Under the pieces are notes generated by a model. It searched no databases and was not told the origin of the DNA. It was given only the letters and a program-made list of their open reading frames with translations. 64,000 nt of DNA from positions 62,001 through 126,000 of the forward strand of contig NZ_QVON01000010.1 in the NCBI RefSeq assembly GCF_003426735.1, read 5' to 3'. Positions 30,893-49,551 of the stretch are shown piece by piece. The translations under genes and the position numbers were made by a program. The number at the start of each line of letters is the position of its first letter. Position 1 is the stretch's first letter. The stretch is from Arenibacter sp. P308M17 (GTDB lineage: Bacteria; Bacteroidota; Bacteroidia; Flavobacteriales; Flavobacteriaceae).

Positions 30893-30966
30893 ACCCCTAA
30901 AATAGATGGGTCATTTTTATATAAAATGTAATTATGACATATATACCCCTAAAAAAATAGGGGGGT
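30893..30966 (+). promoter_or_regulatory. Paired operator sites upstream of glnB-amtB
   Basis: Strong site at 30945-30963: ACCCCTA-AAAAAA-TAGGGG, an inverted repeat. Weaker site at 30893-30911: ACCCCTA-N7-TGGGT. Their starts are 52 bp apart, five turns of B-DNA. The 19-bp strong core is identical to the one before glutamine synthetase II at 49480. The strong site begins 36 bp before the -7 box, a position expected for an activator that touches RNA polymerase. Confidence 0.75.
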
Positions 30967-30980
30967 ATTAATTTAATATA

Positions 30981-30988
30981 TATTTTTG
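30981..30988 (+). promoter_or_regulatory. -7 box of the glnB-amtB promoter
   Basis: TATTTTTG, matching TAnnTTTG, 22 bp before the glnB ATG. No good -33 TTTG is seen, which fits a promoter that needs an activator. Confidence 0.65.
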
Positions 30989-31010
30989 TTTCATAAATAA
31001 TAAATCAATT

Positions 31011-31349
31011 ATGAAAAAAATCGAGGCAATTATTAGAAAGTCAAAATTTGATGACGTAAAAAAAGCGTTGCATCAAATTGAAGTAAACTTTTTTAGTTAC
31101 TGGGACGTAACGGGGGTCGGAAATGAAAAAGAAGGCCATGTCTATAGGGGCATTTCCTATAGTACATCCGACATTCAACGCAGGTATCTTTCCATTGTAG
31201 TTTCGGATGAGTTCTTGGAACGAACCGTTAACACAATTCTGGAAACCGCATACTCCGGTAATGTAGGTGATGGCAAAATTTTCGTTTCAGACATTTTGGA
31301 AGCATATCGCATCAGAACAAAGGAAAGCGGAAAAGCAGGAATCAACTAA
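31011..31349 (+). CDS. glnB: PII nitrogen regulatory protein
   Basis: A 112-residue PII signal protein that senses ATP/ADP and 2-oxoglutarate and binds AmtB when nitrogen is sufficient. Start MKKIEAIIRKSKFDDVKKAL, T-loop region TGVGNEKEGHVYRG with the usual Tyr, B-loop SGNVGDGKIFV and the C-terminal EAYRIRTKESG are visible. It lies 31 bp before amtB, the classic glnK-amtB pair, so a GlnK-like role in gating the transporter is expected. The promoter has paired palindromes shared with the glutamine synthetase II gene. Confidence 0.95.
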   Translation: MKKIEAIIRKSKFDDVKKALHQIEVNFFSYWDVTGVGNEKEGHVYRGISYSTSDIQRRYLSIVVSDEFLERTVNTILETAYSGNVGDGKIFVSDILEAYRIRTKESGKAGIN

Positions 31350-31380
31350 AAAAATTAATAACCAACAAACAAACAACAAC

Positions 31381-32631
31381 ATGGACGTAGGATTATTTAC
31401 AGCAAATAACGTTTGGATGATGATATGTACGGCTCTCGTATTCTTCATGCATTTAGGATTTTCACTTTTAGAAATCGGACTTACCAGACAAAAAAACACG
31501 ATCAATATTTTATTCAAGAACGTATTTATTATATGTATCGGACTCCTCATATATTATGTAGGAGGCTTTAACCTTATGTACCCAGGGGATTTCAACGGGT
31601 ATCTTGGTTTTGCAGGATTCGGAATTGAAGCTCCGATACTACCGGATGGCAGCTTGGACCTAAGCTACAATGAGGGATACACCTATTGGACGGATTTTCT
31701 GTTTCAAGGCATGTTTGCAGCAACAGCGGCAACCATAGTTTCCGGAGCAGTAGCAGAACGTATTAAACTAGGTGGATTTATGATATTTACCATAATCTAT
31801 GTGGGATTGGTTTATCCTATAGTAGGGTCTTGGCAATGGGGCGGTGGATTCCTATCTTCACTTGGCGGTGAAGAAGGTGGTTTCCATGATTTTGCAGGTT
31901 CTACCCTGGTGCATTCCGTAGGGGGATGGGCAGCCTTGATCGCAATCTTTATATTAGGACCAAGAATTGGCAAATTTGACGAAGACGGAAAGCCAAACGC
32001 CATTCCCGGACATAACATTCCATTGGCAGCCGCAGGGGTTCTTATTCTTTGGTTGGGATGGTTTGGATTTAACGGGGGATCCGTACTATCGGCAGATCCG
32101 GCAGGTACTTCCATAGTATTGGTTACTACATGCCTGGCAGCAGCTGCAGGTGGTATGGGAGCCTTTATTTTCTCTACAATACTTTACAAAAACTATGACC
32201 TTACCATGATGCTGAACGGTATCTTAGGTGGTCTTGTCGGAATTACGGCAGGAGCGGATTTAATGTCGCCCTTTGAATCTATTATCATTGGGCTCTTGGC
32301 CGGGGTTATTATTGTCCTTGGCGTTGCGCTGGTAGACAAATTAAAACTGGATGATCCCGTGGGAGCAGTTGCAGTGCATCTTATTTGTGGTATCTGGGGT
32401 ACCTTGGCAGTAGGTATATTCGGAGTTAAAGCGGGAGTGACACAGTTTTTATATCAATTAACAGGGGTTGCTGCCACCGGGGTATTCTGCGCCCTAACAG
32501 CATTCATTATTCTATCCGTGATCAAGAAAACTTCCGGAATACGAGTTTCCAAGGAAGAAGAGTTGGAAGGTTTGGACTTACATGAGCACGGAATGGATGC
32601 TTATGCCGACTTCAGGTTGAACCAACACTAA
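31381..32631 (+). CDS. amtB: Ammonium transporter AmtB
   Basis: A 416-residue Amt/Mep/Rh channel with eleven membrane helices. The two pore histidines are in HDFAGSTLVHSVGGW (about 175-180) and VGAVAVHLICGIWG (about 330-335). The family segments NTINILFKN and WLGWFGFNGGS are present. The start at 31381 (MDVGLFTANNVWMM) is chosen; a longer frame overlaps glnB. The cytoplasmic C-terminus (SKEEELEGLDLHEHGMDAY) is the conserved PII-responsive tail. A strong terminator ends the unit. Confidence 0.96.
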   Translation: MDVGLFTANNVWMMICTALVFFMHLGFSLLEIGLTRQKNTINILFKNVFIICIGLLIYYVGGFNLMYPGDFNGYLGFAGFGIEAPILPDGSLDLSYNEGYTYWTDFLFQGMFAATAATIVSGAVAERIKLGGFMIFTIIYVGLVYPIVGSWQWGGGFLSSLGGEEGGFHDFAGSTLVHSVGGWAALIAIFILGPRIGKFDEDGKPNAIPGHNIPLAAAGVLILWLGWFGFNGGSVLSADPAGTSIVLVTTCLAAAAGGMGAFIFSTILYKNYDLTMMLNGILGGLVGITAGADLMSPFESIIIGLLAGVIIVLGVALVDKLKLDDPVGAVAVHLICGIWGTLAVGIFGVKAGVTQFLYQLTGVAATGVFCALTAFIILSVIKKTSGIRVSKEEELEGLDLHEHGMDAYADFRLNQH

Positions 32632-32646
32632 TAATAAATTCATAAG

Positions 32647-32690
32647 AAAACGGAGCGTTTTGCAGAACGCTCCGTTTATAACCCTTTTTC
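32647..32690 (+). terminator. amtB terminator
   Basis: A 12-13 bp stem AAACGGAGCGTT / AACGCTCCGTTT with a short loop, 16 bp after the amtB stop codon. The downstream barrel gene therefore depends on read-through or on its own promoter. Confidence 0.85.
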
Positions 32691-32747
32691 AATACAACAA
32701 CTCAATAATTAGATAACATCCTTACTAAGGACATAAACAATTGAATT

Positions 32748-33815
32748 ATGAAAACGATTATTTATACAAAATACGTAAAAAATTTACTATTATTTGCATG
32801 CGCCCTTGCCTCAATGGCAACTTTCGGCCAAGAAGACGAGGAAGAAGCCAAAAAATTTAGTCTCAGCGGAAGTGTGGATGCTTACTACAGGACCAACTTT
32901 AATGGTGATAACGGTTTTGACGACACCTCTGGGCTACCCAATGCAGCACCTGGCTCTTCATTTGCCAATTTACCAGGTTTTGCTTTAGGTATGGCCAATG
33001 TGATAGCCGCTTACGATGGGGAAGATGTTGGATTTGTAGCCGATCTTGTTTTTGGCCCTAGGGGAACGGATGCTATTTTTGCCTCCCCCCTATATTCCGC
33101 TACCGGAAATATTGTAAACCAATTATACGTATATTGGAATGTAAGCGAATCCGTTAAATTAACATTTGGTAACTTTAATACCTTTTTAGGTTACGAAGTA
33201 ATATCCCCTGTTGCAAATTTTAACTACAGTACATCCTATCTGTTTTCCTATGGCCCTTTCTCCCATACCGGTTTAAGAGCAGACTTTGCCCTGTCCGATG
33301 ACTTTAGCTTAATGTTGGCCGTCATGAACCCAACAGATCAAACGGAATTGAATCCTACCGATAAATACGCTTTCGGGGCCCAATTGGGATATAGTGGTCA
33401 GTTCCTAAATTTCCTAGCGGATGACGGAGCGTTTGAAATTGACTTTACAGGTGGTTTTGATTTGTCCGACGAGTTCTTCTTGGGAATCAACGCAGCCCTT
33501 TACGATAATGACGATATTGGTTTTGCCGGGGTAGCACTATATCCGCAATACGCCACTTCCGAAAACTTCACCTTGGGATTAAGAGGTGAATATTTTACAG
33601 AAACAGGAGACTATGGTGCTATAGGAACGGGAGTTGAGGATTCCAGTGTTTTTGCCGTAACCCTTACAGGTAGTGCTACTATAGGCAACTTAATGATCAA
33701 GCCAGAACTGCGCTTGGATAGTGCATCGGATGATTCCTTTAATTTTCTGGACAAGGATTTAGCCGCACAAAAGAGTTTATCCTCATTTGTACTAGCGGCC
33801 GTGTATTCTTTCTAA
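32748..33815 (+). CDS. Putative outer-membrane porin next to amtB
   Basis: A 355-residue beta-barrel protein. A signal peptide (about 1-27, ending MATFGQ) precedes an acidic stretch and SLSGSVDAYYRTNF, the usual start of the Bacteroidota outer-membrane beta-barrel family, and the chain ends in VLAAVYSF with a terminal Phe. A related porin gene often sits beside amtB or glutamate synthase genes in Bacteroidota, so a role in passage of ammonium or amino acids is plausible but unproven. No GGGG palindrome precedes it. Confidence 0.85.
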   Translation: MKTIIYTKYVKNLLLFACALASMATFGQEDEEEAKKFSLSGSVDAYYRTNFNGDNGFDDTSGLPNAAPGSSFANLPGFALGMANVIAAYDGEDVGFVADLVFGPRGTDAIFASPLYSATGNIVNQLYVYWNVSESVKLTFGNFNTFLGYEVISPVANFNYSTSYLFSYGPFSHTGLRADFALSDDFSLMLAVMNPTDQTELNPTDKYAFGAQLGYSGQFLNFLADDGAFEIDFTGGFDLSDEFFLGINAALYDNDDIGFAGVALYPQYATSENFTLGLRGEYFTETGDYGAIGTGVEDSSVFAVTLTGSATIGNLMIKPELRLDSASDDSFNFLDKDLAAQKSLSSFVLAAVYSF

Positions 33816-33836
33816 AAAATTGAGTTTATTATTTAT

Positions 33837-33867
33837 AGCCCCGCTCCAAGCGGGGCTTCTTTATTTT
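33837..33867 (+). terminator. Terminator after the porin gene
   Basis: Perfect 9-bp stem AGCCCCGCT-CCA-AGCGGGGCT followed by TCTTTATTTTT, 22 bp after the stop codon. Confidence 0.92.
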
Positions 33868-33870
33868 TAC

Positions 33871-34003
33871 TCGATAATCGAGATTTAAACCTGCCTGCCG
33901 CAGGAAGGTGTTCCAAAGCTTGCCTGCCCGTTTCCGTTAAGGCGGGCATCGAAATCAAACTTGAATTTCCTTTCAATGCCTCCTGGGCTTGCCCCGGGGT
34001 AGT
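33871..34003. repeat. GC-rich extragenic repeats
   Basis: CTCGATAATCGAG palindrome, then CTGCCTGCCGCAGG and TGCCTGCCCG...GGCGGGCA, followed by TGCCTCCTGGGCTTGCCCCG, whose inverted relative is at about 58588-58605. These are members of the REP-like families scattered through the window. Confidence 0.6.
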
Positions 34004-34645
34004 TTACTCCTTCTTAAACGCCTTCACCCCTGCCATAATGGGAATATCCAGCCTATTCTGCTGGGGTACCAACGGACACGAATATTTTGGATTATATGCA
34101 CAATAGGGATTATAGGCCTTGTTAAAATCCAAAAGAATCGTATTGCCTTTGGGAATGGTCAAATCCAAATATCTTCCCCCGCCATATGTCTCCTCCCCAT
34201 TAGTTAGATCGGCAAAAGGCAAAAACAAGTATTCCCTGTATTTTTCCTGATGCATCAATTCCTGATTTTGATAAACCTCCAATTTATGGGACCGGCCTTT
34301 TAGATGGAAGGTTATTACCCCAAAAACGACCTCCTCCGTTTCCCGTTCCGTAGTGGTAGGCATCATAAAAGGCAAGGCCTCCGGTGTTCTGGTAAACTTT
34401 GCAACAATCCTATATGTGGTATCGGGTTCAAAAAAATCCAAAGTGGTAAAATCCTTTCTATACCTATCCGCCAAGGGCGAGGTTTCGGGATCCTTGAATT
34501 CCTCATTCATCTTTTTCTGAAATTGTACGATACCCTCTATGGCGCCGGACTCCGGTTCCACTAGATTACTTTGCTCTTGATCGTGGTATTTTTTTTCCTT
34601 ACAGCCCAATGAAAATAACAATATGACCAATAACAACTGCTTCAT
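34004..34645 (-). CDS. DUF1684 lipoprotein
   Basis: A 213-residue lipoprotein (MKQLLLVILLFSLGCKEKK, lipobox Cys15). DUF1684 features are SPLADRYRKDFTTLDFFEPDTTYRIVAKF, the EEVVFGVITFHLKGRSHKLEVYQ strand pair, and the C-terminal LPFADLTNGEETYGGGRYLDL ... FNKAYNPYCAYNPKYSCPLVPQQNRLDIPI. Its function is unknown; the AYNPYCAYNPKYSCPLVP motif is the family hallmark. The start at 34645 is chosen because it begins the lipoprotein signal. Confidence 0.92.
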   Translation of the reverse strand: MKQLLLVILLFSLGCKEKKYHDQEQSNLVEPESGAIEGIVQFQKKMNEEFKDPETSPLADRYRKDFTTLDFFEPDTTYRIVAKFTRTPEALPFMMPTTTERETEEVVFGVITFHLKGRSHKLEVYQNQELMHQEKYREYLFLPFADLTNGEETYGGGRYLDLTIPKGNTILLDFNKAYNPYCAYNPKYSCPLVPQQNRLDIPIMAGVKAFKKE

Positions 34646-35077
34646 TTTCTTTCTTTTGCCGTAAAAATACAATATCCCTCTTATTGAATAAAAAAAATGA
34701 CGACCAATCCCACCCAAGTCCGGTGTGCATAAAGGCTTAGTGTTGCTTAGTAGACATTAAATGCTAGATGTTAGATGCTAGAAACTAGAAAAACAAACCT
34801 TGAACTTTGAGTCCACTCCGATTTCGACTCCGCTCAATCTCCATCAATACACACCCCTAACCCCTCTCAAGAGGGGAATTTTTCAAACATTGAAGCTTAT
34901 ATTAATGTACCAATGTACTAATTTGTTAATTTATCAATATATAGAGGATCGCTTTGAATCTTGAACTTTGTAAATCCGGACAAAGTCAAACTTTGAACAT
35001 TGAACTTTTTTCCTGCCTACTGCTACTGCCAACTGTAAACTGTTACTACCTGCTCCATTTAACCATATACATTCAAC
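34646..35077. repeat. Spacer of short phased repeats
   Basis: No gene. Contains four 7-bp units (ATGCTAG, ATGTTAG, ATGCTAG, AAACTAG; 34761-34788), a GAGGGG hairpin (CCCCTCTCAAGAGGGG, 34861-34876), five 8-bp units (AATGTACC, AATGTACT, AATTTGTT, AATTTATC, AATATATA; 34904-34943), and TTGAACTTTG-type repeats. The 8-bp units read on the other strand resemble GGTACATT of the 30550 array. Confidence 0.6.
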
Positions 35078-36490
35078 TTATTCTTCAATGGTCTCATAAC
35101 GGGCGTCCTTTAAGTATTTGGCCACAATCTCATTGAACTCGGGGGTTATACGCAGCAAAGCCGTATTTTCCAAACGGTACAGTTCGGCTTTGTCCATATA
35201 TCCTTTCTTTAATAATTCCTCCAAATAAAATAGGGAAGTGCCATAATCCCCCATCTCTGCACTATTCGATATTATTTTAAGATAATAGCTATGGTCCATT
35301 GGATCTGTTATTGTCTTCATCATCCACAGAAGGCTTAAAGCTTCTTGGTCTACCGGGGTTCCTGAATTTACTATATCTATATTATCCTCGATCAATGCAT
35401 TAACATAACCCAAAAGGCGTTTCCCCATTTCCCTTTCCGCCTCTATTTTGCTGCTATCATACTTCTTTAACTCCCCCATTTGGTATATCCACCAACCCAA
35501 ATTATTATAATTATAAGTAGCCAGATCCTCTTCCAAATAATACACATAATCCTCCTTGATAAAGGACTCCTTCAAAAAGGAGTTGTTCTCATTACGTACC
35601 CTAGTTTTAAAAAGCTTATTTTTATTAAGATCACGCTTTATTTTCTTAAGGGAATCAATATCTTTCAGGACCCTATATACGGAGATGACCTCATCCAATA
35701 AATTATCGGCCTGAATTAATCTATTGGAGCCGATCAAAAGATTAATTTCCTCCAAATTTTGTGCATAAGTATCATTAACATAGCCTTCATCTTTCTCCGA
35801 TAAACCTTTGCCAATGGCCGATAAGGTGAAGATTTCCATGGCCTTTCCGAGGTATTGGTTATTGGGCCACACATGGCCCCCGTTAAAAACCAGTAACTGA
35901 TTGGGAAATTTTAAGCGTCCCATGAGCGACTTCCCTGCCAACATTTCCGGATAGGCATAATCTTCCTTTCCTACGATTCCTATAAAATGAAATAAATTCT
36001 TGGTATCCAATATTTCCATATTGGGATATACGGCACCACAGGAAATTACCCCAGCTATCCCCTTAACAAATATGGGAAGTACAGAGGCAAATCTGGCACC
36101 GCTATCAAATCCGGCACTATAGATCCTATTCTTTTGTACGGGCAATAGGCCAATAATATTATTGAACATCCTTCCGGTTATCAGAATATTCTGGGAAGTA
36201 CTCAGGGAGTCGTTTACATTGTTCGATGCCGCCAATATATATCCCTGCTTTTCCGCCGCCCCGGTAAACATACGTATTGCCTGCTTCCCCTTTCCTTCCA
36301 TATCAAAAACAAAAAGTATGGGCCAATTCCTATCCATTTCAAAGCTGGTGGGAATATACAGCGAATAGCTCTCCGGTATGGAATCCTTTATGGCAATGGA
36401 ATCTATTACGACGCCTTTTTTCAAAGTCATCTGCTGTGAATTGCACAATAAACCGGCACCAAGAAACAGAAATAGTATAATTTTTTTCAT
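35078..36490 (-). CDS. Secreted alpha/beta-hydrolase-like protein with helical C-terminus
   Basis: A 470-residue protein. Signal peptide about 1-18 (MKKIILFLFLGAGLLCNSQ). The first half is an alpha/beta-hydrolase fold (ESYSLYIPTSFEMDRNWPILFVFD, nucleophile-elbow region YSAGFDSGARFA, and NGGHVWPN with the possible catalytic His). The elbow reads G-F-D-S-G instead of GxSxG, so Asp occupies the usual Ser position. The second half is helical, TPR-like, ending with short repeat-like segments (SLFYLEELLKKGYMDKAEL). Catalytic activity is uncertain. Confidence 0.78.
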   Translation of the reverse strand: MKKIILFLFLGAGLLCNSQQMTLKKGVVIDSIAIKDSIPESYSLYIPTSFEMDRNWPILFVFDMEGKGKQAIRMFTGAAEKQGYILAASNNVNDSLSTSQNILITGRMFNNIIGLLPVQKNRIYSAGFDSGARFASVLPIFVKGIAGVISCGAVYPNMEILDTKNLFHFIGIVGKEDYAYPEMLAGKSLMGRLKFPNQLLVFNGGHVWPNNQYLGKAMEIFTLSAIGKGLSEKDEGYVNDTYAQNLEEINLLIGSNRLIQADNLLDEVISVYRVLKDIDSLKKIKRDLNKNKLFKTRVRNENNSFLKESFIKEDYVYYLEEDLATYNYNNLGWWIYQMGELKKYDSSKIEAEREMGKRLLGYVNALIEDNIDIVNSGTPVDQEALSLLWMMKTITDPMDHSYYLKIISNSAEMGDYGTSLFYLEELLKKGYMDKAELYRLENTALLRITPEFNEIVAKYLKDARYETIEE

Positions 36491-36906
36491 CTATTTAAAA
36501 AATTTATTCGATCAAAAAACAGGGGCATAAAAATTTTCTACATAAATCAACCCTCGCTCTCCCGGCTGCCATCAATTTTTTTAACGATTAACGGTCAGGT
36601 TCGCTTTAAACTGCCGGCAGGCAGGGAATTTATTTATTTTGTGCCGATAACTATCGGGAGGTATGCAAAAAAAATAATTTTGTTTATACCCGTTTCATAG
36701 AATTCTTGTCATCAAATATCTAGCCAAAATAAAATAGCAACCCAGACACTCCGAAACATCCTAGTCAAAGCTAAGGATTGTCATAGTACAAATTACTGTC
36801 AGCTCTTTTTAACTTGGCGTTACAACAAAGTAAAGTAAATAATTAAAATATAACCCCAAAGCCGCCAACCACTTTTAATTTCAACCATCCCCTTTAACCA
36901 CCATTA
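36491..36906. other. Spacer with extragenic repeats
   Basis: No gene. CTGCCGGCAGGCAGG at about 36611-36625 and GCCGATAACTATCGGGAG at about 36643-36660 are copies of the window's two commonest extragenic repeats. The remaining 240 bp before the Lrp gene end show nothing I can name. Confidence 0.5.
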
Positions 36907-37359
36907 TTACACCTCTCTTTTTTTAATGGGCGCATTAGACACTACATCGGACAGAATAATATGGGTCCGCGTCTCCCCATATTGTATAAGCTTGTCTATA
37001 AATTTTTCCAAATGAAATTGATCCTTTAATACCACTAACATGATAATATTTTCATTGCCCGTAATCCGATAACAATTAACAACTTCTTCATAGGTATTTA
37101 CAATTTCCAAAAAAGGCCGTAACTTCCCCATAAAAGCCCTCAGCGTAATAATAGCTTTTAGTTGATAGCCGGTATGTGAATGGGACACCACTGCTTTGTA
37201 ACCTGAAATAATCCCAGTATCTTCCATTTTCTTTACCCTTTCCGCAACCGCAGGGGGCGTTAGGCCCACTTTCCGGCCTATATTGGCAAAAGATTCCCTG
37301 GCATTTTCCTGAAGTAATTTTAAAATCTTCCAATTAAGGACATCTATCTTTGTATTCAA
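36907..37359 (-). CDS. Lrp/AsnC family transcriptional regulator
   Basis: A 150-residue regulator. The N-terminal winged helix (DVLNWKILKLLQENARESFANIGRKVGLTPPAVAERVKKMEDTGIISGYKAVV) is followed by the RAM ligand-binding domain (ITLRAFMGKLRPFLEIVNTYEEVVNCYRITGNENIIMLVVLKD). The ligand is probably an amino acid. It is divergent from the 130-residue gene at 37477 across 117 AT-rich bp, so that gene is a natural candidate target. Confidence 0.94.
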   Translation of the reverse strand: MNTKIDVLNWKILKLLQENARESFANIGRKVGLTPPAVAERVKKMEDTGIISGYKAVVSHSHTGYQLKAIITLRAFMGKLRPFLEIVNTYEEVVNCYRITGNENIIMLVVLKDQFHLEKFIDKLIQYGETRTHIILSDVVSNAPIKKREV

Positions 37360-37476
37360 AATAAAATGAATTAAAAATATTAATATTCAATAGCTAAAAT
37401 ACAATTTTACTTTGTTATATAAACTTAACTTTGCTAATTTCAACGTAATTTTATATATCAGAATTTTTCAATAAAA

Positions 37477-37869
37477 ATGCCTTACAAAAACTTAAGTACG
37501 ATTCCCATTTACAGGAAATCCTTGGATCTTTTACGGATGAGCAGGGAAATAGCCTCGTACCTATCCTACAACAAGGATTTGCTTAAGTTGTACCAATCCA
37601 ATAGCCATAGGGATATCATGGTAGATTCCCTTTTGACCGATTCCATTTTAATACCGCAGCAAATTGAAGTGGCCGAGCGCGCCGATTGCTATGCTGCCCG
37701 AATGCGAAGTGCTTCCTTTATCAATGTTATCATAAGAAATATAAATTCCTATTGTACCGGTCTGGAAAAGGACGGGGTCAAGGAAAAGGAATACTTAAAT
37801 CTTCTAAGGAGCGAAATTAAAAGTTTCAGAAGATTGTATAAAGTATGGAGACGATCCATCAGAAGCTAA
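37477..37869 (+). CDS. Hypothetical helical-bundle protein divergent from Lrp
   Basis: Not firmly recognised. A 130-residue basic, all-helical protein (IPIYRKSLDLLRMSREIASYL ... LRSEIKSFRRLYKVWRRSIRS) without a signal peptide. The pattern of a charged helix, a central loop and a C-terminal RRLYKVWRRS helix resembles the four-helix-bundle family first known from 23S rRNA intervening-sequence proteins, but the match is weak. Its control region is shared with the Lrp-family gene. Confidence 0.7.
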   Translation: MPYKNLSTIPIYRKSLDLLRMSREIASYLSYNKDLLKLYQSNSHRDIMVDSLLTDSILIPQQIEVAERADCYAARMRSASFINVIIRNINSYCTGLEKDGVKEKEYLNLLRSEIKSFRRLYKVWRRSIRS

Positions 37870-38197
37870 GTGTTCCTATTTTTATGTATCCCATTTTACT
37901 TCACACACCTTTTAACACCCACTAGCCCGATAGATCTTTTTCAATATCTTCATGCCTGTTTTGGGCCAAGGCAATAACTCGCGCTATGGTAATCACCTTC
38001 AACCCTCTAAGTGAATATTGGAGAAATGGGATTGGTGGGTCACTCACCTTTTATAGATAAAAAAAGGACCATTATCGGGACACGATTTAATAAAAATGTA
38101 AAAATTACATCAATATTGTTGTAATTATATAAAAATACCCTACAACCGGAGTACTTCCTACCTAAAATCCTAATTTTGCCCCCTAAACCATTGCACT
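37870..38197. other. Spacer before purU with a perfect 15-bp palindrome
   Basis: ATGTAA-AAA-TTACAT at 38096-38110, with a related half, TTGTAATTATA, about 20 bp on. TAATTTTG at 38171-38178 is a good -7 box for purU. The first 200 bp show nothing I can name. The palindrome may be an operator for purU; it is 61 bp upstream of the -7 box. Confidence 0.5.
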
Positions 38198-39049: not shown

Positions 39050-39105
39050 TTATATGTACTAAATCCCAATAGCATAAGTTATAGATATAACCCTAAAATA
39101 TTACA

Positions 39106-39807: not shown

Positions 39808-39941
39808 ATGGGAACAATTAATGGATAGTTTACACAATAAACCCAATTAATTAGCGTTACATATTAACAAGGACGTCTTACAATCCTTTGTTTTCCTAAA
39901 ATAGCGATACAGTTGTACGCCGTATAAAAAAGTTGAGTTAG

Positions 39942-40892: not shown

Positions 40893-41078
40893 GATTCAAT
40901 TTTTATAAATGTAGTGTTAAAACCAATACACTCTATTGGGGAACAAATAAATCAAAATATAACACTAACATGCCCTCAAGGCTAAAAATAGACAAATTAC
41001 CTGATTATTGGATGACTGCACTTTTGGATAGCTCTCCCAAACCTCCGCTTTCAATTATATTTGTAAGAAAAAAATTAT

Positions 41079-41276
41079 ATGGAAAATCAATATTGTAAAG
41101 TTGGTGCGATATCCTCCATAACCAAAGGATCCAAAGAATTACGCTATTTGGAATACCAATACCAAAATTTCATGGACAAAGCCATCAGCAAAAAATATTC
41201 CGATTCTAAACTTGCCGAATTCTTTGAATTGAAAGCCATCAGAATCCAAAAAATCATCCAGACCTTGACCCATTAA
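41079..41276 (+). CDS. Lacal_2735 family small protein
   Basis: A 65-residue cytoplasmic protein of the flavobacterial Lacal_2735 family, function unknown. It is helical and basic (SITKGSKELRYLEYQYQNFMDKAISKKYSDSKLAEFFELKAIRIQKIIQTLTH). TATATTTG at 41056-41063 is a possible -7 box. It ends 5 bp from the convergent pyrF stop. Confidence 0.82.
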   Translation: MENQYCKVGAISSITKGSKELRYLEYQYQNFMDKAISKKYSDSKLAEFFELKAIRIQKIIQTLTH

Positions 41277-41281
41277 GGCGT

Positions 41282-42100: not shown

Positions 42101-42105
42101 GAAAA

Positions 42106-43182
42106 TTAAAATATCTCAGAGGCTTCCTTTAATTTCTCCGTATTGTCCACCAAACTTAATTCGTCTATAATACGCTGAATATCGCCGTTAATAATGTTCT
42201 GTAAGTCGTAAAGCGTTAATCCGATCCTATGGTCCGTTACCCTGCCCTGAGGATAATTATAAGTTCTAATTTTAGCCGAACGATCCCCGCTGCTAACCTG
42301 TGAATTTCTCTTGGCGGCATCCTCTTCCTGTTTTTTGGCCAATTCCATATCATACAAACGGGAGCGTAACACCCTAAATGCCTTTTCCTTATTTTTATGC
42401 TGCGATTTCTGATCTTGGCACTGTGCCACCAAACCAGTAGGAAGGTGGGTTAGACGCACAGCAGAATAGGTGGTATTCACAGATTGCCCACCTGGTCCGG
42501 AGGAACAGAAAAAATCTATCCGTACCTCCTTGGGGTCTATCTGAACATCAAAATCCTCGGCCTCGGGAAGTACCATTACCGTAGCGGCACTGGTATGTAC
42601 CCTGCCCTGGGTTTCGGTCTGTGGAACGCGTTGTACCCGGTGTACCCCTGCTTCAAATTTAAGGGTACCGTACACATCCTCGCCGGTAACTTCGAACTGT
42701 ATCTCCTTATACCCGCCACTAGTACCTTCGCTAAGATCGATTACATTCGTTTTCCATCCTTTGGATTCACAATATTTGGTGTACATTCTGAAAAGATCGC
42801 CCGCAAAAATACTGGCTTCATCCCCTCCGGTACCTGCCCTTACCTCCACCACTACATTTTTGGAATCTTCCGGATCCTTAGGAATCAGCATAAATTTAAT
42901 CTCCTCTTCTAATTTGGGCAATTTTTCCTTGGCTTCCTCCAATTGCATTTTGGCCATATCCACCATTTCGGGATCGCTGCCATCGGACAGAATCTCCTCT
43001 GCCTCGGATATGTTATTGGTATATTCCAAATATAGATCCCTCTTGTCCACAAGTTTTTTTAAGTCCTTATATTCTTTGTTCAGCGCCACATAACGCTTCT
43101 GGTCCGCAATAATTCCAGGCTGGATTATCAGGTCCGAAACCTCATCAAAACGTTGCTTTACTATGTTTAATTTATCTATCAT
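42106..43182 (-). CDS. prfA: Peptide chain release factor 1
   Basis: A 358-residue release factor recognising UAA and UAG. The N-terminal helical domain is followed by [27 protein letters not shown], then [29 protein letters not shown] and the peptidyl-hydrolysis motif [10 protein letters not shown] (about 230). The normal length and the absence of a frameshift distinguish it from RF2. It is first in an operon with pyrF. Confidence 0.95.
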
Positions 43183-43249
43183 ATACTATCTACACTTGGA
43201 CTGCGAATTTACGATAATTTTGTACATTTAAGCATATCCCGTTCAATAG

Positions 43250-43573
43250 ATGAATTCTATTTTCAATTTTAGAAACTATCAATTAATTTTCCTCTTTGCC
43301 AGGCCTTATCTTTGGATATCCTTTATAATTACGGTTTTTATGTTATTTACCGGGGGTATTGTTTTTAAGATATCCAATTTAAATGCCATGATCCTAAGTT
43401 CCAAGATATTGTTTTATCTAGGGATCTTTTTGTCTTATTTTGATATTGCCCTACGAATGCGCTTGACGTTTTATCACAATTTTGGTATGTCCAAAACAGT
43501 ACTTATCCTAATTTCATTTCTATTGGACATCTTCATAACCCTATTATTCATTAACATCTTCCGTTTATTTTGA
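43250..43573 (+). CDS. Small three-helix membrane protein coupled to an ABC ATPase
   Basis: Not recognised. A 107-residue hydrophobic protein with about three membrane helices (YLWISFIITVFMLFTGGIVF, ILSSKILFYLGIFLSYFDIAL, VLILISFLLDIFITLLFINIF). Its TGA stop overlaps the TTG start of the ATPase gene (TTGA), so the two proteins are made together. TAATTTTG at 43215-43222 with TTGG near 43196 is a good promoter. It is far shorter than a normal ABC permease. Confidence 0.75.
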   Translation: MNSIFNFRNYQLIFLFARPYLWISFIITVFMLFTGGIVFKISNLNAMILSSKILFYLGIFLSYFDIALRMRLTFYHNFGMSKTVLILISFLLDIFITLLFINIFRLF

Positions 43574-44217
43574 CCTTGGAAATAGATAGCGTTGAACTGG
43601 AATATAACGGTAAAAAGATCCTGTACGGAATTTACATTAAATTGGAACGTGGTAAAATTACGGGAATCCTTGGAAGGAACGGTAGTGGAAAAACCTCCGT
43701 GTTGAGAATTTTATTTGGGGACCTACAACCAAAATACAAGAACATCCGCTGCAATGGAAAACACCTTCCAGGACCATTATACACTACAGGAAAAATAGGT
43801 TACTTGCCGCAATACCCCCTTGTGCCCAAGGAGTTGAGCATGAAGCGCACCTTTGGTCTTTTCAATGTTCCATGGGGACAATTTATTAACATTTTCGAAA
43901 ATTTTCAAGAATACGGCGAGACTAGGGTAAAAGATTTGTCCAGCGGGGAAATTAGGGTTATGGAAACATACTTAGTACTCATGTCCAACAAGGAAATTAT
44001 ACTTCTGGACGAACCTTTTTCTTTTATAGCACCCATATATATCGAGAAATTCAAGGTCCTTATCCAACAAGTCAAGAAAAAGAGTATTATAGTCCTTACG
44101 GATCATTTTTACAATGATATCCTGGCGATCAGCGATACGGTCTATCTTTTAAAAAATGGATGTTCCAAAAAAATAGGGGACATGAAAGAACTTAAGGGTC
44201 TGGGATATATTAATTAG
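43570..44217 (+). CDS. ABC-type ATPase paired with a small membrane protein
   Basis: A 215-residue stand-alone ATPase. Walker A GRNGSGKTS is near residue 36, the Q-loop in GYLPQYPLVPKELSM, a degenerate signature LSSGEIRVMET near 119, Walker B IILLDEPFSF near 138 with the catalytic Glu, and the H-loop His in VLTDHFYND. It starts with TTG inside the stop codon of the upstream membrane gene and converges on apbE 3 bp away. It may form a small exporter or a membrane-associated regulator; the substrate is unknown. Confidence 0.88.
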   Translation: MTLEIDSVELEYNGKKILYGIYIKLERGKITGILGRNGSGKTSVLRILFGDLQPKYKNIRCNGKHLPGPLYTTGKIGYLPQYPLVPKELSMKRTFGLFNVPWGQFINIFENFQEYGETRVKDLSSGEIRVMETYLVLMSNKEIILLDEPFSFIAPIYIEKFKVLIQQVKKKSIIVLTDHFYNDILAISDTVYLLKNGCSKKIGDMKELKGLGYIN

Positions 44218-44220
44218 GAC

Positions 44221-45207
44221 TCAATTCATTAAGACACCACTACTTTTGTGCATTATATTATTATCGTCCACAATAATGGCCTCTGTTCCCTTCAATTGAT
44301 TGATCAGCGCCATACCCGAATCCACTCCAAGTACAAAAATAGCGGTAGCCAGAGCATCCGACAATTCAGCGGTCTTTGAAAAGACCGAGACACTATTAAT
44401 GCCGGAAATGGGTTTTCCCGTTCTGGGATCCAGAATGTGCGAATATTTCCTTCCATCAAAAGTGATATATTTATCATAGCTCTCAGAAGTAGCTACAGAA
44501 GATTCCAGAACTGGCAGCCACGAAAATATTTTGTCCTTGCTCAGTGGATTTGCAATTCCTATCAACCACTTTTCCCCTGTAGCCTTTGTACCCCAGGTAG
44601 TTAGGTCACCGGAAGCATTGATGACCCCGGCGCGAACCTGTTTCTCCACTAACAACTCTTTGGCCATATCGGCAGCGTAGCCTTTAGCTATCCCCCCTAG
44701 ACCTATCTTCATCCCTTTCAATTGTAGGAAGACCGTTCTATCTTCCTCATTCATAATAATTTTTCTATACCCTACCTTGCTTACGGACTGTATTATATCG
44801 TCCTTGGTAGGTCTGAACTTCATGGAACCATCAAACTTCCAGATCTCTTCCAAGCCCGCAAATGTAATATCGAATGCCCCATTGGTTATTTCAGAAATCT
44901 GATTCGCCCTTTCAATTAGCTTAAATAGTTCCACACTTACCTTCACCGGTTTTATCCCGGCATTTTTATTGATCTCCGAGGTTTCCGATTCCTCGTCCCA
45001 GGAAGATACCAGTTTTTCTATCCTTTTAATTTCAGAAACTGCCTCTTCAATATTTATATAGCCTATTTCTTCATTATCGGCCACTACGGTAATATCAAAT
45101 TTACCGCCCATTAAGTTTACGGATCGATGTACGGTAACATACTTGGGTTGTTGCGAATGGCCCATAATTACCGAACAAAATATTAAAAAGGAAAATAATG
45201 CCCTCAC
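44221..45207 (-). CDS. apbE: FAD:protein FMN transferase ApbE
   Basis: A 328-residue exported flavin transferase that attaches FMN to Ser/Thr of periplasmic or membrane electron-transfer proteins such as NqrB, NqrC or RnfG. Signal peptide 1-19 (MRALFSFLIFCSVIMGHSQ). Family motifs are VSSWDEESETSEINKNAG, AFDITFAGLEEIWKF, the flavin-binding GLGGIAKGYAADMA, NASGDLTTWG, and YSHILDPRTGKPI. The start is GTG, overlapping the TGA of a 75-codon frame (GTGA). No flavoprotein target is encoded nearby. Confidence 0.93.
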   Translation of the reverse strand: MRALFSFLIFCSVIMGHSQQPKYVTVHRSVNLMGGKFDITVVADNEEIGYINIEEAVSEIKRIEKLVSSWDEESETSEINKNAGIKPVKVSVELFKLIERANQISEITNGAFDITFAGLEEIWKFDGSMKFRPTKDDIIQSVSKVGYRKIIMNEEDRTVFLQLKGMKIGLGGIAKGYAADMAKELLVEKQVRAGVINASGDLTTWGTKATGEKWLIGIANPLSKDKIFSWLPVLESSVATSESYDKYITFDGRKYSHILDPRTGKPISGINSVSVFSKTAELSDALATAIFVLGVDSGMALINQLKGTEAIIVDDNNIMHKSSGVLMN

Positions 45208-45431
45208 CCTTGAAGAATATTAAACATGGAACCTTTCCGTGTATTGCCCGGGGTAAGTGTATTGCCTTTACAGATCGCGGATCCGCTCCCTGAAGACCAA
45301 AGCCCATAAACCATTGCCTTATTACTTAGGTCGGGGAATGTAAATGACTTCGCAATACGAAAATAAGACATAGGAAAGGACCCATATACACAAAATAAGA
45401 GTCCGAAGAATGATATTAAGGAAAATCCCAT
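45204..45431 (-). CDS. Possible small exported protein between Rieske and ApbE genes
   Basis: A 75-residue frame (MGFSLISFFGLLFCVYGSFP, then MSYFRIAKSFTFPDLSNKAMVYGLW). The N-terminus looks like a signal peptide or membrane helix. Its stop overlaps the GTG start of apbE and it begins 35 bp after the Rieske gene, which favours a real, translationally coupled gene. I do not recognise the sequence. It may instead be a chance frame in the apbE leader. Confidence 0.45.
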   Translation of the reverse strand: MGFSLISFFGLLFCVYGSFPMSYFRIAKSFTFPDLSNKAMVYGLWSSGSGSAICKGNTLTPGNTRKGSMFNILQG

Positions 45432-45466
45432 GTAGGTCTGTAGGTTAAAATTTGGATTTGATCGGA

Positions 45467-45907
45467 TTATTCAAAAACGCGAAGAATCTGCCCTTCCAAC
45501 TCCGTTTTAAATATTTTAAGGGGTTTGGCCGGACTGCTATCTATCTGATTTAAAGGTGAGCCGTCAAGATCAAACCGGGATCCATGCACATCGCAATGAA
45601 AAATACCTCCATTATTGGTCGTAAAACGAACTTGATCATATGATTCATGGCTACAGACCTGACTGGCCGCTACAAAGTTACCATTCAAATCCTTGACCAC
45701 CACGACCAAGTTTTTTAATATAAAACTTCCATTGTCCGCCAACTTGGATCCCTCGGAGGAATTCAAATCAATAGTGAAATCTACACCTTCCGGGATTTCA
45801 ACAATATCGCCATTGTCATTATCTTTGGAACAACCGTGTAAGCAGGGAAAAGCAAGGGCAAATGCCGCTCCGGTACCTAAGGTCCTTAAGAATTGCTTTC
45901 TTTCCAT
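45467..45907 (-). CDS. Rieske 2Fe-2S protein, secreted
   Basis: A 146-residue electron-transfer protein. The N-terminus (MERKQFLRTLGTGAAFALAFPCLHGC) resembles a Tat or lipoprotein-type signal. The cluster ligands are Cys-x-His in VCSHESYD and Cys-x2-His in FHCDVHGSRFD, with DLDGSPL typical of arsenite-oxidase/plastocyanin-type Rieske folds. With ApbE three genes later it suggests a periplasmic redox module. It lies 49 bp after purM. Confidence 0.92.
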   Translation of the reverse strand: MERKQFLRTLGTGAAFALAFPCLHGCSKDNDNGDIVEIPEGVDFTIDLNSSEGSKLADNGSFILKNLVVVVKDLNGNFVAASQVCSHESYDQVRFTTNNGGIFHCDVHGSRFDLDGSPLNQIDSSPAKPLKIFKTELEGQILRVFE

Positions 45908-45956
45908 AACGTAATTTCTTTATAAAATAACGTCGGAAAAAGTGTATTCGTATGCC

Positions 45957-47135
45957 TTAATACTCAAAGGTGCCATACTCACTTTTAATTGTGAGTTTTT
46001 TAACAGAATTCCCTTCCACCCTGCCCACAATCTGGGCCAAGACCCCATAACTTTCCGATATACCGATAAGATCTTCGGCAATTGAGGGATTTACATACAA
46101 TTCCAACCTATGTCCACAATTAAAAACTTGGTACATCTCCTTCCAGTCGGTCCCCGATTGTTCCTGTATTAATTGGAACAAAGGAGGAACGGGAAACAGG
46201 TTATCCTTTACAATATGAAGGTTATCAACAAAATGAAGAATTTTGGTCTGCGCGCCTCCGCTACAATGCACCATTCCATGAATATCGTTCGCCCTATATT
46301 TACTGAGAATTTTTTTTACAATTGGTGCATAGGTTCGGGTTGGGGACAACACCAATTTCCCTGCATCCACGGGAGTATTGGGGACCTCATCGGTCAACCT
46401 AACATTTCCGGAATACACCAAATCTTCCGGCACTGCCACATCATAGCTTTCCGGGTATTTTTCCGCCAAGTATTTGGCAAAAACATCATGCCTTGCAGAG
46501 GTAAGCCCATTACTCCCCATACCACCATTGTACTCCTTTTCATAGCTGGCCTGTCCTGAGGAAGATAGACCCACAATAACATCGCCCGCCTTAATGTTGG
46601 CATTATTGATGACCTCACTCCTTTTCAACCTTGCCGTTACTGTGGAATCTACGATAATGGTACGCACCAAATCCCCTACATCTGCCGTTTCCCCTCCTGT
46701 AGATCTTATCGTAATCCCATGCTTTTCCAAGTCCTCTATCAACTCTTCCGTTCCATTGATTATGGCAGATATGACCTCTCCGGGAATTAAGTTTTTGTTT
46801 CTCCCAATGGTTGAGGACAACATAATATTATCCGTCGCCCCAACACAAATAAGATCATCGAGATTCATGATCAGGGCATCTTGCGCTATTCCTTTCCATA
46901 CGGAAATGTCTCCTGTCTCTTTCCAATACATATAGGCCAAGGAGGATTTGGTACCTGCACCATCGGCATGCATCACTAAACAATACTCCCTATCATTCGT
47001 GAGGTAATCGGGCACAATTTTACAGAAAGCTTGGGGAAAGAGACCTTTATCAATATTTTTTATGGCATTGTGGACATCCTCCTTGGAAGCGGAAACCCCT
47101 CTTTGATCGTATCTTTTGCTAGTTGATGAGCTCAT
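45957..47135 (-). CDS. purM: AIR synthase (phosphoribosylformylglycinamidine cyclo-ligase)
   Basis: A 392-residue enzyme that closes the imidazole ring in purine synthesis using ATP. It is the longer Bacteroidota form: YDQRGVSASKEDVHNAIKN, VMHADGAGTKSSLAYMYWKETGD, GATDNIMLSSTIGRN, STGGETADVGD, and VHCSGGAQTKILHF are visible. A TATTTTTG box on the minus strand lies about 20 bp upstream, and a terminator separates it from the glutamine synthetase III gene. Confidence 0.94.
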   Translation of the reverse strand: MSSSTSKRYDQRGVSASKEDVHNAIKNIDKGLFPQAFCKIVPDYLTNDREYCLVMHADGAGTKSSLAYMYWKETGDISVWKGIAQDALIMNLDDLICVGATDNIMLSSTIGRNKNLIPGEVISAIINGTEELIEDLEKHGITIRSTGGETADVGDLVRTIIVDSTVTARLKRSEVINNANIKAGDVIVGLSSSGQASYEKEYNGGMGSNGLTSARHDVFAKYLAEKYPESYDVAVPEDLVYSGNVRLTDEVPNTPVDAGKLVLSPTRTYAPIVKKILSKYRANDIHGMVHCSGGAQTKILHFVDNLHIVKDNLFPVPPLFQLIQEQSGTDWKEMYQVFNCGHRLELYVNPSIAEDLIGISESYGVLAQIVGRVEGNSVKKLTIKSEYGTFEY

Positions 47136-47171
47136 GAATAAATGTTTGCGACAAAAATAGGGGAATCCATA

Positions 47172-47199
47172 AAAAAAAGCCCACTAATTGCGGGCTTTT
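47172..47199 (-). terminator. Terminator of the glutamine synthetase III gene
   Basis: AAAAGCCC paired with GGGCTTTT around a 9-nt loop, with eight T on the minus strand, 26 bp after the stop codon. Confidence 0.88.
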
Positions 47200-47224
47200 A
47201 ATTCAATATTTATAAAGGTCCAGA

Positions 47225-49411
47225 TTATTTAATGAACAATAGTTCCCGATATTTGGTCAATGGCCAAAATTCATCACCAACCAGTTGTTCCAGTTTATCA
47301 CAATGGTAACGAATCTCGTCAAAATACGGCCTTACATTATCGCAATAGGCAAAAGCTTTTTTATTTATATCGGACATATTGTTGGCCTTCTTTCTCTCAT
47401 CTACCATGGCATCGGTCTTGATCTTAATAGCACGGATATGCTCGGAAATCCGCTCGACAATATCCAACTGACTTTCCGACATTTTCTTGTGGGCGGCACC
47501 GTAAATTTCCTTTAGGCCTACCACATTTTTTATCAATTTATTCTGATACTCCACTGCGGCAGGGATGATATAGCCATAAGCCAGCTCATTAAATACCCTG
47601 CCTTCAATCTGAATATGAAGAATGTACTCCTCCAACTCTACCTCCTGCCGAACCCTCACCTCAATTTCGCTCATAACGTTCATGGACTTGAACAGTGCCA
47701 AACTTTCTTTGGAGGTCAGTACTTGCAATGCCTGTGGGGTATTCTTATTATTGCTCAAGCCTCTGGATTTGGCCTCATTCTCCCATGCCTCGCTGTAGCC
47801 ATCCCCCTCGAACCTAATTCTTTTGGAGGTCTTGATATATTCCCTTAGGACATTAAAAATAGCCTCATCCTTTTTAAGCCCTTTCTTATCCACCAATTGA
47901 TCTACCTCTTTTTTGAACGCCATAAGCTGCTTGGCCACAATGGTGTTCAGTACCGTCATTGGTTTAGCGCAATTGGACTTGGAACCAACGCCGCGCATTT
48001 CAAACTTATTGCCTGTAAAGGCAAAGGGTGAAGTACGGTTACGATCGGTATTGTCCAGAAGGATTTCCGGAATTTTACCTACCACGTTCAATTTTAATTC
48101 CGTCTTTTCCTCGGGCGATAATTTCCCTTTGGTAACCCCTTCCAACTCATTTAAGACCTCGTTCAACTGTTCGCCAATAAAAATGGAGAGGATAGCCGGA
48201 GGTGCCTCATTGGCCCCCAACCTATGGTCGTTGCTTGCCGAAGCTATGGAAGAACGCAATAATTCCTCATAATTGTCCACCGCTTTAATCGTATTCACGA
48301 AAAAAGTCAAGAACTGGAGGTTTTTCATGGGGGTAGACCCTGGACTAAGCAAATTGACCCCGGTATCGGTAGATAAGGACCAATTATTGTGCTTTCCGGA
48401 CCCGTTTATATCCTTAAAGGGCTTTTCATGAAACAACACTTTAAAGAAATGCCTATCCGCAATCTTTTCCATGACATCCATTAACAATAGATTGTGGTCT
48501 ACGGCCAGATTGGTCTCTTCAAAGATGGGGGCCAACTCAAATTGATTGGGAGCTACTTCGTTATGTCTGGTTTTTACAGGTATCCCCAATTTGGTACATT
48601 CCTTCTCCAAATCTTTCATGAAATTCAATACGCGGTTTGGAATGACACCAAAATAATGGTCGTCCAATTGCTGCCCCTTTGCAGCGGATTGGCCAATTAG
48701 GGTACGGCCGGCCAAACTTATATCCGGTCTGGAAAAGGCCAAGGATTTGTCTATCAAAAAATATTCCTGCTCCCACCCCAAGGTGGCATAGACCTTGGAC
48801 ACATTTTTATCAAAGAATTTGGCTACCGCTGTCGCCGCCTCATCCATGGCGTTCAAGGCCCTTAAAAGCGGGGCCTTATTATCTAGGGCCTCCCCTGTAT
48901 AGGCCACAAAAACAGTGGGTATACAAAGGGTAGTTCCGTATAAAAATGCCGGTGAGGTAGGGTCCCATGCCGTATAGCCCCGGGCTTCAAAAGTATTACG
49001 GATGCCCCCATTTGGAAAACTGGAAGCATCGGATTCCTGCTGTACCAACTGGCCCCCGCCGAACTTTTCCATAACCCTTCCTTCAGGCGAAAAATCGAAA
49101 AAAGCATCGTGTTTCTCCGCTGTGGTTCCCGTAAGCGGTTGAAACCAATGCGTGTAATGGGTAGCCCCCATGGATATTGCCCAGGTCTTCATCCCTTCTG
49201 CTACCTGATCGGCAACTTTTCGGTCTATTTTAACCCCGGATACCACGGCTGCCTTTACCCTGTCATAGGCATCCTTGGTCAAATACTGTAACATACGTTC
49301 CTCATTGAACACATTTACCCCAAAGTATTCCGAACGTCTGCCGGTTTCCTCTACATTCATAACAGGCCTGGAATGACTGCTTGCTATAGCCTTAAATCTT
49401 TGATTTGACAT
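47225..49411 (-). CDS. Glutamine synthetase type III
   Basis: A 728-residue GSIII (GlnN type) that makes glutamine from glutamate, ammonium and ATP as a double-ring dodecamer. Family features are YFGVNVFNEERMLQYL at the start, GATHYTHWFQPLTGTTAEKHDAF, TLGWEQEYFLID (metal site Glu), TRHNEVAPNQFELAPIFEETNLAVDHN, HNNWSLSTDTG and DRNRTSPFAFTGNKFEMR. The start at 49411 (MSNQRFKA) is preferred to 49438. It is divergent from the type II gene; the shared spacer holds palindromes. No sign of truncation. Confidence 0.95.
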   Translation of the reverse strand: MSNQRFKAIASSHSRPVMNVEETGRRSEYFGVNVFNEERMLQYLTKDAYDRVKAAVVSGVKIDRKVADQVAEGMKTWAISMGATHYTHWFQPLTGTTAEKHDAFFDFSPEGRVMEKFGGGQLVQQESDASSFPNGGIRNTFEARGYTAWDPTSPAFLYGTTLCIPTVFVAYTGEALDNKAPLLRALNAMDEAATAVAKFFDKNVSKVYATLGWEQEYFLIDKSLAFSRPDISLAGRTLIGQSAAKGQQLDDHYFGVIPNRVLNFMKDLEKECTKLGIPVKTRHNEVAPNQFELAPIFEETNLAVDHNLLLMDVMEKIADRHFFKVLFHEKPFKDINGSGKHNNWSLSTDTGVNLLSPGSTPMKNLQFLTFFVNTIKAVDNYEELLRSSIASASNDHRLGANEAPPAILSIFIGEQLNEVLNELEGVTKGKLSPEEKTELKLNVVGKIPEILLDNTDRNRTSPFAFTGNKFEMRGVGSKSNCAKPMTVLNTIVAKQLMAFKKEVDQLVDKKGLKKDEAIFNVLREYIKTSKRIRFEGDGYSEAWENEAKSRGLSNNKNTPQALQVLTSKESLALFKSMNVMSEIEVRVRQEVELEEYILHIQIEGRVFNELAYGYIIPAAVEYQNKLIKNVVGLKEIYGAAHKKMSESQLDIVERISEHIRAIKIKTDAMVDERKKANNMSDINKKAFAYCDNVRPYFDEIRYHCDKLEQLVGDEFWPLTKYRELLFIK

Positions 49412-49426
49412 AAATTCATTTTTTAA

Positions 49427-49434
49427 CAAAAATA
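49427..49434 (-). promoter_or_regulatory. -7 box of the glutamine synthetase III gene
   Basis: TATTTTTG on the minus strand, 15 bp before the chosen ATG. The strong palindrome begins 65 bp upstream of this box, not in the same phase as at glnB or the type II gene. Confidence 0.55.
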
Positions 49435-49479
49435 GCAATTCATAAAAATAATCCGCACAAAATACATATTTAATAATTT

Positions 49480-49551
49480 ACCCCTAAAAAAATAGGGGTC
49501 TCAAAAAAAATTTAATCATTATTATCATTTAACCCACTAAAAAATGGCATA
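49480..49551 (+). promoter_or_regulatory. Paired operator sites between glutamine synthetases III and II
   Basis: Strong site at 49480-49499: ACCCCTA-AAAAAA-TAGGGGT, a perfect 7-bp inverted repeat around six A. Degenerate site starting near 49532: ACCCACTAAAAAATGG. Starts are about 52 bp apart. The degenerate site starts 35 bp before the type II -7 box. The strong core matches 30945-30963 over 19 bp. Confidence 0.75.

Follow-up and report, generated by a model that had tools for sequence, protein, structure and literature searches.

Paired palindromes upstream of glnB-amtB and glutamine synthetase genes of Arenibacter as probable operators of a nitrogen-assimilation regulon in Flavobacteriaceae and related Bacteroidota

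A 64,000-bp stretch of the genome of Arenibacter sp. P308M17 (contig NZ_QVON01000010.1, positions 62,001 to 126,000; hereafter, the window) carries palindromes of the form ACCCCTA-N6-TAGGGGT, each paired with a second site at a distance of 52 bp, at two loci: upstream of glnB-amtB and in the spacer between the divergent genes of a type III glutamine synthetase (GSIII) and a GlnII-type glutamine synthetase (GSII). These palindromes are very probably the operator pair of a nitrogen-assimilation regulon, in which sigma-A promoters would be activated under nitrogen shortage. Sequence comparisons suggest that the regulon is common to most sampled genera of the family Flavobacteriaceae and extends to other families of the order and to scattered other Bacteroidota. 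It appears to be of the known nitrogen-assimilation kind, its two-site layout being unusually strict. In nitrogen-poor seas, flavobacteria play a major part in breaking down algal polymers, and no general regulator of ammonium assimilation described from Bacteroidota is known to us. Among the matches listed, no title or abstract of the open-access literature concerned an operator or regulator for nitrogen in this phylum. Because its 20-bp sites are defined and the genes it precedes are known, the putative operator pair offers a bait with which to find the regulator, allows a regulon to be predicted in many genera, and opens nitrogen sensing in Bacteroidota to direct tests.

Putative operator pairs in the window

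The 19-bp sequence ACCCCTAAAAAAATAGGGG is present at both 30945-30963 and 49480-49498. The original prediction had reported this identity, weaker partners 52 bp off (at 30893 and 49532), and at each locus a TATTTTTG box, 36 and 35 bp, respectively, past the start of the proximal site, all of which were confirmed in the sequence (Table 1). A profile of 102 positions (R1), trained only on 54 GSII and glnB promoters, matched the glnB-amtB promoter, which belonged to the training set, with E 4.5e-11 (G000:C2:92891-92983, window 30891-30983). The site at 49480 was matched on both strands (E 1.1e-6 and 1.3e-6). This spacer had been described as the GSII promoter, which holds, while the divergent GSIII gene sharing it had been overlooked; GSIII was divergent from GSII in 29/29 GSII loci examined.

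Table 1. Genes, putative operator sites, and promoter boxes at the two loci (positions in the window)
Feature	Position	Strand	Evidence or remark
Distal (weaker) putative operator site of glnB-amtB, ACCCCTAAAATAGATGGGTC	30893..30912	+	Start 52 bp upstream of proximal start
Proximal (strong) putative operator site of glnB-amtB, ACCCCTAAAAAAATAGGGGG	30945..30964	+	Sequence and profile match
TATTTTTG -7 box, glnB promoter	30981..30988	+	Start 36 bp past proximal site start
glnB, PII protein	31011..31349	+	PF00543 E 4.3e-22
amtB, ammonium transporter	31381..32631	+	PF00909 E 9.6e-118; TIGR00836 above its cut-off
Outer-membrane porin (BBP2, OmpL-like) downstream of amtB	32748..33815	+	PF07642 E 3.9e-65
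GSIII, type III glutamine synthetase, divergent from GSII	47225..49411	-	PF12437, PF18318, PF00120
TATTTTTG box, candidate GSIII -7 box	49428..49435	-	Putative use; offset 65; offsets vary in relatives
Strong putative operator site, ACCCCTAAAAAAATAGGGGT	49480..49499	+	Distal for GSII, nearer one for GSIII
Weak putative operator site, ACCCACTAAAAAATGGCATA	49532..49551	+	Proximal for GSII; start 52 bp from strong-site start
TATTTTTG -7 box, GSII promoter	49567..49574	+	35 bp past proximal site start
GSII, glutamine synthetase of GlnII type	49609..50622	+	NF041605, PF00120, PF03951

The source genome alone proves little, and the weight comes above all from conservation in relatives. With up to 3 mismatches, the window contained 4 palindrome matches versus 2.72 expected. 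Single sites with up to 2 mismatches were not enriched in the whole 5.04-Mb genome (30 places versus 37 for the reversed control). At up to 1 mismatch only 3 places were found genome-wide, two of them being the glnB-amtB and GSIII/GSII sites.

Conservation of the pair and its predicted targets

Relatives were represented by 120 genomes, one per genus of the family. At E 0.001, 113 of these genomes had a match to GSII, which in about 40 of them was only the distant GSIII, and 84 had a match to glnB; the 30 best-scoring loci of each gene were analyzed. Upstream regions were given a pair score based on the window's own consensus, with a maximum of 28 for two sites spaced 50–55 bp apart and a threshold of 18. 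At least 18 was scored by 27/30 GSII and 25/30 glnB loci versus 1/355 upstream regions of other genes, and by 2/600 and 1/600 shuffled copies. When the spacing was left free between 20 and 120 bp, 28.2/30 of the weight at GSII and 24.0/30 at glnB still fell at 50–55 bp, with 1.8 expected under a uniform distribution. Mean distances between site centres were 52.14 bp at GSII (standard deviation 1.14, n=29) and 52.92 bp at glnB (standard deviation 0.88, n=25). Six loci (L021, L054, L060, L063, L068, and L070) were excluded from the profile alignment and from these means and are included in the sets of 30. The pair predicted for orthologous promoters is thus kept, at 52–53 bp.

The exchange of strong and weak sites, with the strong one proximal at glnB and distal at GSII, is real in the window and fails as a general rule, since in relatives the distal site was the stronger in 25/29 GSII pairs, and at glnB the distal site was stronger in 13 cases, the proximal in 10, and 2 were tied. 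The distal site is a full palindrome in relatives, and the proximal site at GSII has a weak downstream half. The pair was also present at GSIII in genomes lacking GSII, where 19/32 upstream windows of 215 bp scored at least 18. In GSIII-only genomes, a further conserved element was seen by eye between the two GSIII sites, in the ATTNATAACTTAACATTAAAAA region (L186, L192, L193, L195, L200, L203, and L206).

Searches of whole genomes led to the same functional class of genes. The single-site pattern with up to 1 mismatch occurred at 78 places in 61 of the 120 genomes, versus 16 places for the reversed control, and 21/29 newly fetched pattern loci were upstream of nitrogen genes. Profile R1 matched in 117/120 genomes at E 0.05 and in 85/120 at E 1e-4. 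All of the 30 best profile loci were at nitrogen genes, 17 being training promoters and 13 not; nine of these 13 were porin genes divergent from gltB. Target classes independent of the training set comprised gltB divergent from a porin-Amt(-glnB) operon, alanine dehydrogenase (ald), a second Amt, and GSIII alone, and 16/20 hand-picked loci away from GSII and glnB belonged to them. The clustering at nitrogen genes that had been proposed for related genomes, gltB included, was therefore found.

The third profile match in the source genome (E 2.2e-4) was upstream of its gltB on contig C5 (G000:C5:13363-13504, L133). Sites were located at positions 1534 and 1588-1590 of L133, with a third C-tract at 1640, and the pair scored 18 at 50–55 bp and 20 at 56 bp (0/500 shuffles). 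This gene carries a weaker, differently placed version of the pair and is probably a target.

At the level of the order, 63/158 genomes were matched by the profile at E 0.001. Of 28 newly fetched loci (L244-L271), 26 were at nitrogen genes, one being a training promoter, and 10/12 loci outside the family were likewise at such genes. The matched genes encoded GSIII, GSII, PII (glnB), Amt, GltB, alanine dehydrogenase, and UrtA adjoining urease. In one locus (L245, genome G236), the site pair was located between urtA of a urea transporter and divergent urease genes, which would extend the predicted regulon to urea use. In two genomes of family f2 (L250/L362 in G136 and L265/L363 in G120), profile matches precede genes of Gcw_chp family proteins, possibly a further target.

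Named GSIII loci with enough upstream DNA numbered 77, after L420, L444, and L458 were dropped because they had too little. Scores of at least 18 were obtained for 26/43 Flavobacteriales-like loci and 7/34 others, which suggests that the pair is widely distributed within the order and scattered outside it. The 43 comprise every usable locus in the range L382-L419 irrespective of its title, which is Saprospiraceae, Bacteroidota, or Bacteroidia in some cases, together with L423, L425, L426, L442, and L457. Scores of at least 18 outside this set included those of Hymenobacter (L438, L443), Rufibacter (L446), and two Bacteroidales assemblies (L450, L452). The maximum among eight loci of Chitinophagales/Sphingobacteriales, placed there by title or from general knowledge (L430, L432, L433, L434, L441, L445, L454, and L460), was 15. 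The closest named relatives of the window's GSIII among the matches listed, from which very near records were possibly left out, were those of Cellulophaga and Euzebyella, 79–80% identical, which most likely points to a marine member of Flavobacteriaceae.

Promoter geometry and predicted mode of action

Promoter mapping in F. psychrophilum is reported to give TAnnTTTG as the -7 consensus for sigma-A (PMC9723704). The distance from the centre of the proximal site to the first T of this box averaged 25.2 bp at GSII and 25.7 bp at glnB. If the box is taken as about -12 to -5, the proximal dyad would lie near -38 and the distal one near -90. An AAAAAT tract was found between the sites in 19/25 glnB promoters (mostly at an offset of 36–38 bp) and 15/29 GSII promoters (mostly at 24–27 bp). 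On the minus strand, no common GSIII -7 box was found 35 bp from the shared distal site; offsets of TAnnTTTG there were scattered.

The sites, their position relative to the box, and the genes that follow are consistent with the following mechanism. Each palindrome would be occupied by a dimeric DNA-binding protein. The proximal dimer, centred about 25.5 bp before the first T of TAnnTTTG, would cover the place of the missing -33 element, and the distal dimer would bind about 52.5 bp, or five helical turns, upstream of it and on the same side of the helix. Under nitrogen shortage the sigma-A promoter would be activated, the proximal dimer standing in for the -33 contact and the distal one, aided by the A-tract between the sites, holding the C-terminal domain of the RNA polymerase alpha subunit. 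The targets would be GSIII, GSII, glnB-amtB with the porin gene, and probably gltB; to these, relatives would add a second Amt, alanine dehydrogenase, and urea uptake. A two-dimer activator of PII, ammonium uptake, and assimilation had been proposed for this DNA; its targets and spacing are supported, and activation is read from the position of the sites, which suggests rather than demonstrates it.

Several observations weigh against this reading. At E 1e-4, 35/120 genomes were without a profile match. The pair score was below 18 at 3/30 GSII and 5/30 glnB loci, at 17/43 named Flavobacteriales-like GSIII loci, and in 13/32 GSIII-only genomes, including the complete genome G023; two GSIII pairs that pass (L209 and L216) are doubtful, as one partner lies at or beyond the box. 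In the source genome, the gltB sites precede the nearest TAnnTTTG box by about 170 bp or more and thus depart from the fixed geometry, and the region upstream of ald has no good site (best 8/14). The presence or absence of two AsnC-type proteins (AsnC-A and AsnC-B), GerE proteins, and a small MerR-type protein did not single out a regulator. Finally, site position alone also fits repression.

A repressor could indeed block the polymerase by occupying the -33 region, and looping between the two distant sites could also repress. However, at the aligned GSII and glnB promoters the proximal site ends before the -7 box, a bare promoter lacking the -33 element should be weak, and the near-fixed distance between site and box is that expected for contact with the polymerase; we therefore regard repression as unlikely. 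A role as hairpins, terminators, or a repeat element without regulatory function, which would suit inverted repeats that are perfect or nearly so and enclose an A/T-rich loop, is extremely improbable, being contradicted by the fixed spacing of the pairs as well as by their position upstream of the -7 box and their association with one class of genes in many genera.

In the CRP class III promoters of Escherichia coli, among the closest known systems, tandem sites are located at about -41.5 and -93.5. Those promoters likewise have two palindromes at a distance of approximately 52 bp, of which the proximal takes over the -35 contact and the distal is in phase, whereas here the sequence differs and the proximal dyad is about 3–4 bp closer to the -7/-10 box. 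The half-site here is ACCCCT, with the most conserved bases about 5.5–7.5 bp from the dyad, rather than the CRP half-site TGTGA or a known variant of it. Like the NtcA regulon of cyanobacteria, the predicted regulon would place amt, glnB, glutamine synthetase, and uptake of nitrogen sources under one activator bound near -41.5 in place of a -35 element, but NtcA recognizes a GTA-N8-TAC site that is usually single. The GlnR/TnrA regulons of Bacillus share the targets (amtB-glnK, glnA, gltAB, and ure) and the A/T-rich centre of the palindrome but have a TGTNAN7TNACA site. Two activator dimers at glnA and glnK-amtB are also found in the NtrC/sigma-54 system of Proteobacteria, while the promoters described here have TAnnTTTG boxes, which suggest sigma-A, and the distance from these to the sites is nearly constant. 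The sigma-54 promoters reported for F. psychrophilum serve chaperone, envelope, and gliding genes (PMC9723704). The predicted Crp-like (BT4338) regulon of Bacteroides is another palindromic motif of Bacteroidota derived from comparative genomics; it differs in sequence (wwwTATGTTnTAnAACATAwww) and is located at sugar genes (PMC3878776). The word "nitrogen" occurs 0 times in the main text of that article.

Candidate regulators and genes at the two loci

Candidates were compared between motif-bearing and motif-poor genomes, the latter defined by no profile match or a best E of at least about 0.008, with their individual promoters mostly unread. Two motif-poor genomes, G065 and G067, are 87–88% complete, and G251 was counted as motif-bearing by its profile score, while the site scan found no good palindrome there.

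The chances are nearly even, leaning slightly against, that the regulator is a Crp/Fnr protein, a BlaI-type (Penicillinase_R) regulator encoded near GSIII, or a member of another helix-turn-helix family. Spacing and placement of the sites as in CRP class III promoters argue for the first of these. The source genome has 6 HTH_Crp_2 matches, 5 of them above the cut-off, but in our judgement its Crp-family proteins look like oxygen or two-component regulators. A BlaI-type gene was located within a few kb of GSIII in 5/80 named loci (L390, L391, L397, L404, and L457) and next to a BlaR1-type M56 peptidase gene near GSIII in L174 and L381, but was absent from most GSIII neighbourhoods seen. No open frame in the 80 GSIII loci matched a few Crp, AsnC, or MerR references. 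Inspection of 20 loci of 7–16 kb by eye revealed single response-regulator or XRE-like genes; the BlaI-type gene of L381 aside, no regulator gene recurred.

Identification of the regulator with a small (109 amino acids) MerR-type protein, as a functional counterpart of GlnR/TnrA of Bacillus, is rather unlikely. GlnR and TnrA are small MerR proteins without an effector domain, and their sites have an A/T-rich centre with contacts 6–8 bp from the dyad. Both traits have parallels here, in the lack of an effector domain in the candidate and in the A/T-rich centre of the palindrome. A MerR_1 match in a frame of about 109–157 amino acids was found in 24/24 motif-bearing genomes (the protein was read in 18/24), even in the small genomes G043, G052, G099, and G129, and was absent from three f16 genomes of 0.3–0.6 Mb. 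However, the motif-poor genomes G004, G020, G023, G064, G065, and G067 have the protein no less than the others, so that it does not discriminate, and the f16 genome G157 lacks it yet has a weak profile match (E 4.3e-4). Against the NCBIfam TnrA model, for which one of the three MerR_1 proteins of the genome was scored, it reached 20 bits with a cut-off of 140. Its gene (L361) is located between an M23 peptidase gene and lemA, neither of which has a nitrogen role known to us. The protein is strongly conserved across the order and was matched in 43/46 genomes of the order examined. Its own promoter had no good site in 30 loci (best 7–9/14), and autoregulation was rejected.

A broader possibility, in our view rather doubtful, is general nitrogen control in Bacteroidota by a regulator family new to nitrogen, acting as paired dimers five turns apart with probable feedback from PII or glutamine synthetase; the 109-amino-acid protein would be the leading candidate compatible with it.

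A LuxR/NarL-type (GerE) protein is very unlikely to be the regulator. In its 20-bp layout, ACC...TA-N6-TA...GGT, the site agrees with the lux box, and TACCCCT conforms to the NarL heptamer TACYYMT, but GerE was not matched in G129 and G251, was matched once below the cut-off in G052, and in G099 gave a best match just above the cut-off (25.5 versus 23.5 bits) in a 947-amino-acid frame. Three of these genomes (G052, G099, and G129) carry the pair, with profile E values of 1.8e-11, 7.0e-8, and 7.0e-6, respectively. GerE was rejected on this distribution; the genomes are 90–96% complete, and absence of the gene from all of them through incompleteness is possible but unlikely.

Two Lrp/AsnC proteins, a family that would suit an A/T-rich palindrome centre, were considered and are highly improbable. 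AsnC-A (window 36907-37359) keeps its synteny with GSIII in a large part of the family, but close orthologs were not found in at least 11 genomes (G003, G014, G025, G043, G052, G082, G085, G098, G109, G113, and G119) that have profile matches from about 2e-6 to 1e-14. AsnC-B (G000:C20:362912), which adjoins the alanine dehydrogenase gene, was 82–92% identical in 12 of the 16 loci retrieved; in relatives it is frequently a neighbour of ald, and the ald promoter there frequently has the pair. Nevertheless, G113 lacked a close ortholog of it, and G129, G152, and G178 lacked any relative at E 1e-5, although all four have the pair, and it is kept in the motif-poor genomes G004, G020, G064, G065, and G067. 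Presence and absence thus contradict both, and each was rejected. Many genomes contain a third AsnC paralogue, with none at E 1e-5 in G129, G152, and G178. The AsnC-A gene of the window adjoins a purU-like gene, and in much of the family it is in the same stretch as GSIII, tens of kb off.

Among the structural genes (Table 1), amtB had its top score with TIGR03644 of the marine subtype, yet under the cut-off of that model, and GSII matched NF041605 with E 1.7e-112, also under the curated cut-off. The porin gene at 32748-33815 appears to be in one operon with amtB. Porin genes also follow the site pair in L160, L161, L169, L173, and L178, succeeded by Amt or glnB in four of these five, and in relatives the porin with the site pair stands divergent from gltB. 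The operator pair thereby predicts the porin beside amt/glnB as a candidate nitrogen-scavenging channel of the outer membrane. Genome G009 has two GSII copies; one immediately follows amtB and lacks its own site pair (L021), and the other (C21) has a near-perfect site 105 bp upstream. Elsewhere in the window, AGCCCTAAGAAATTAGGGCT at 13834-13853, directly past the stop codon of the minus-strand frame 13875-14807, is terminator-like rather than operator-like.

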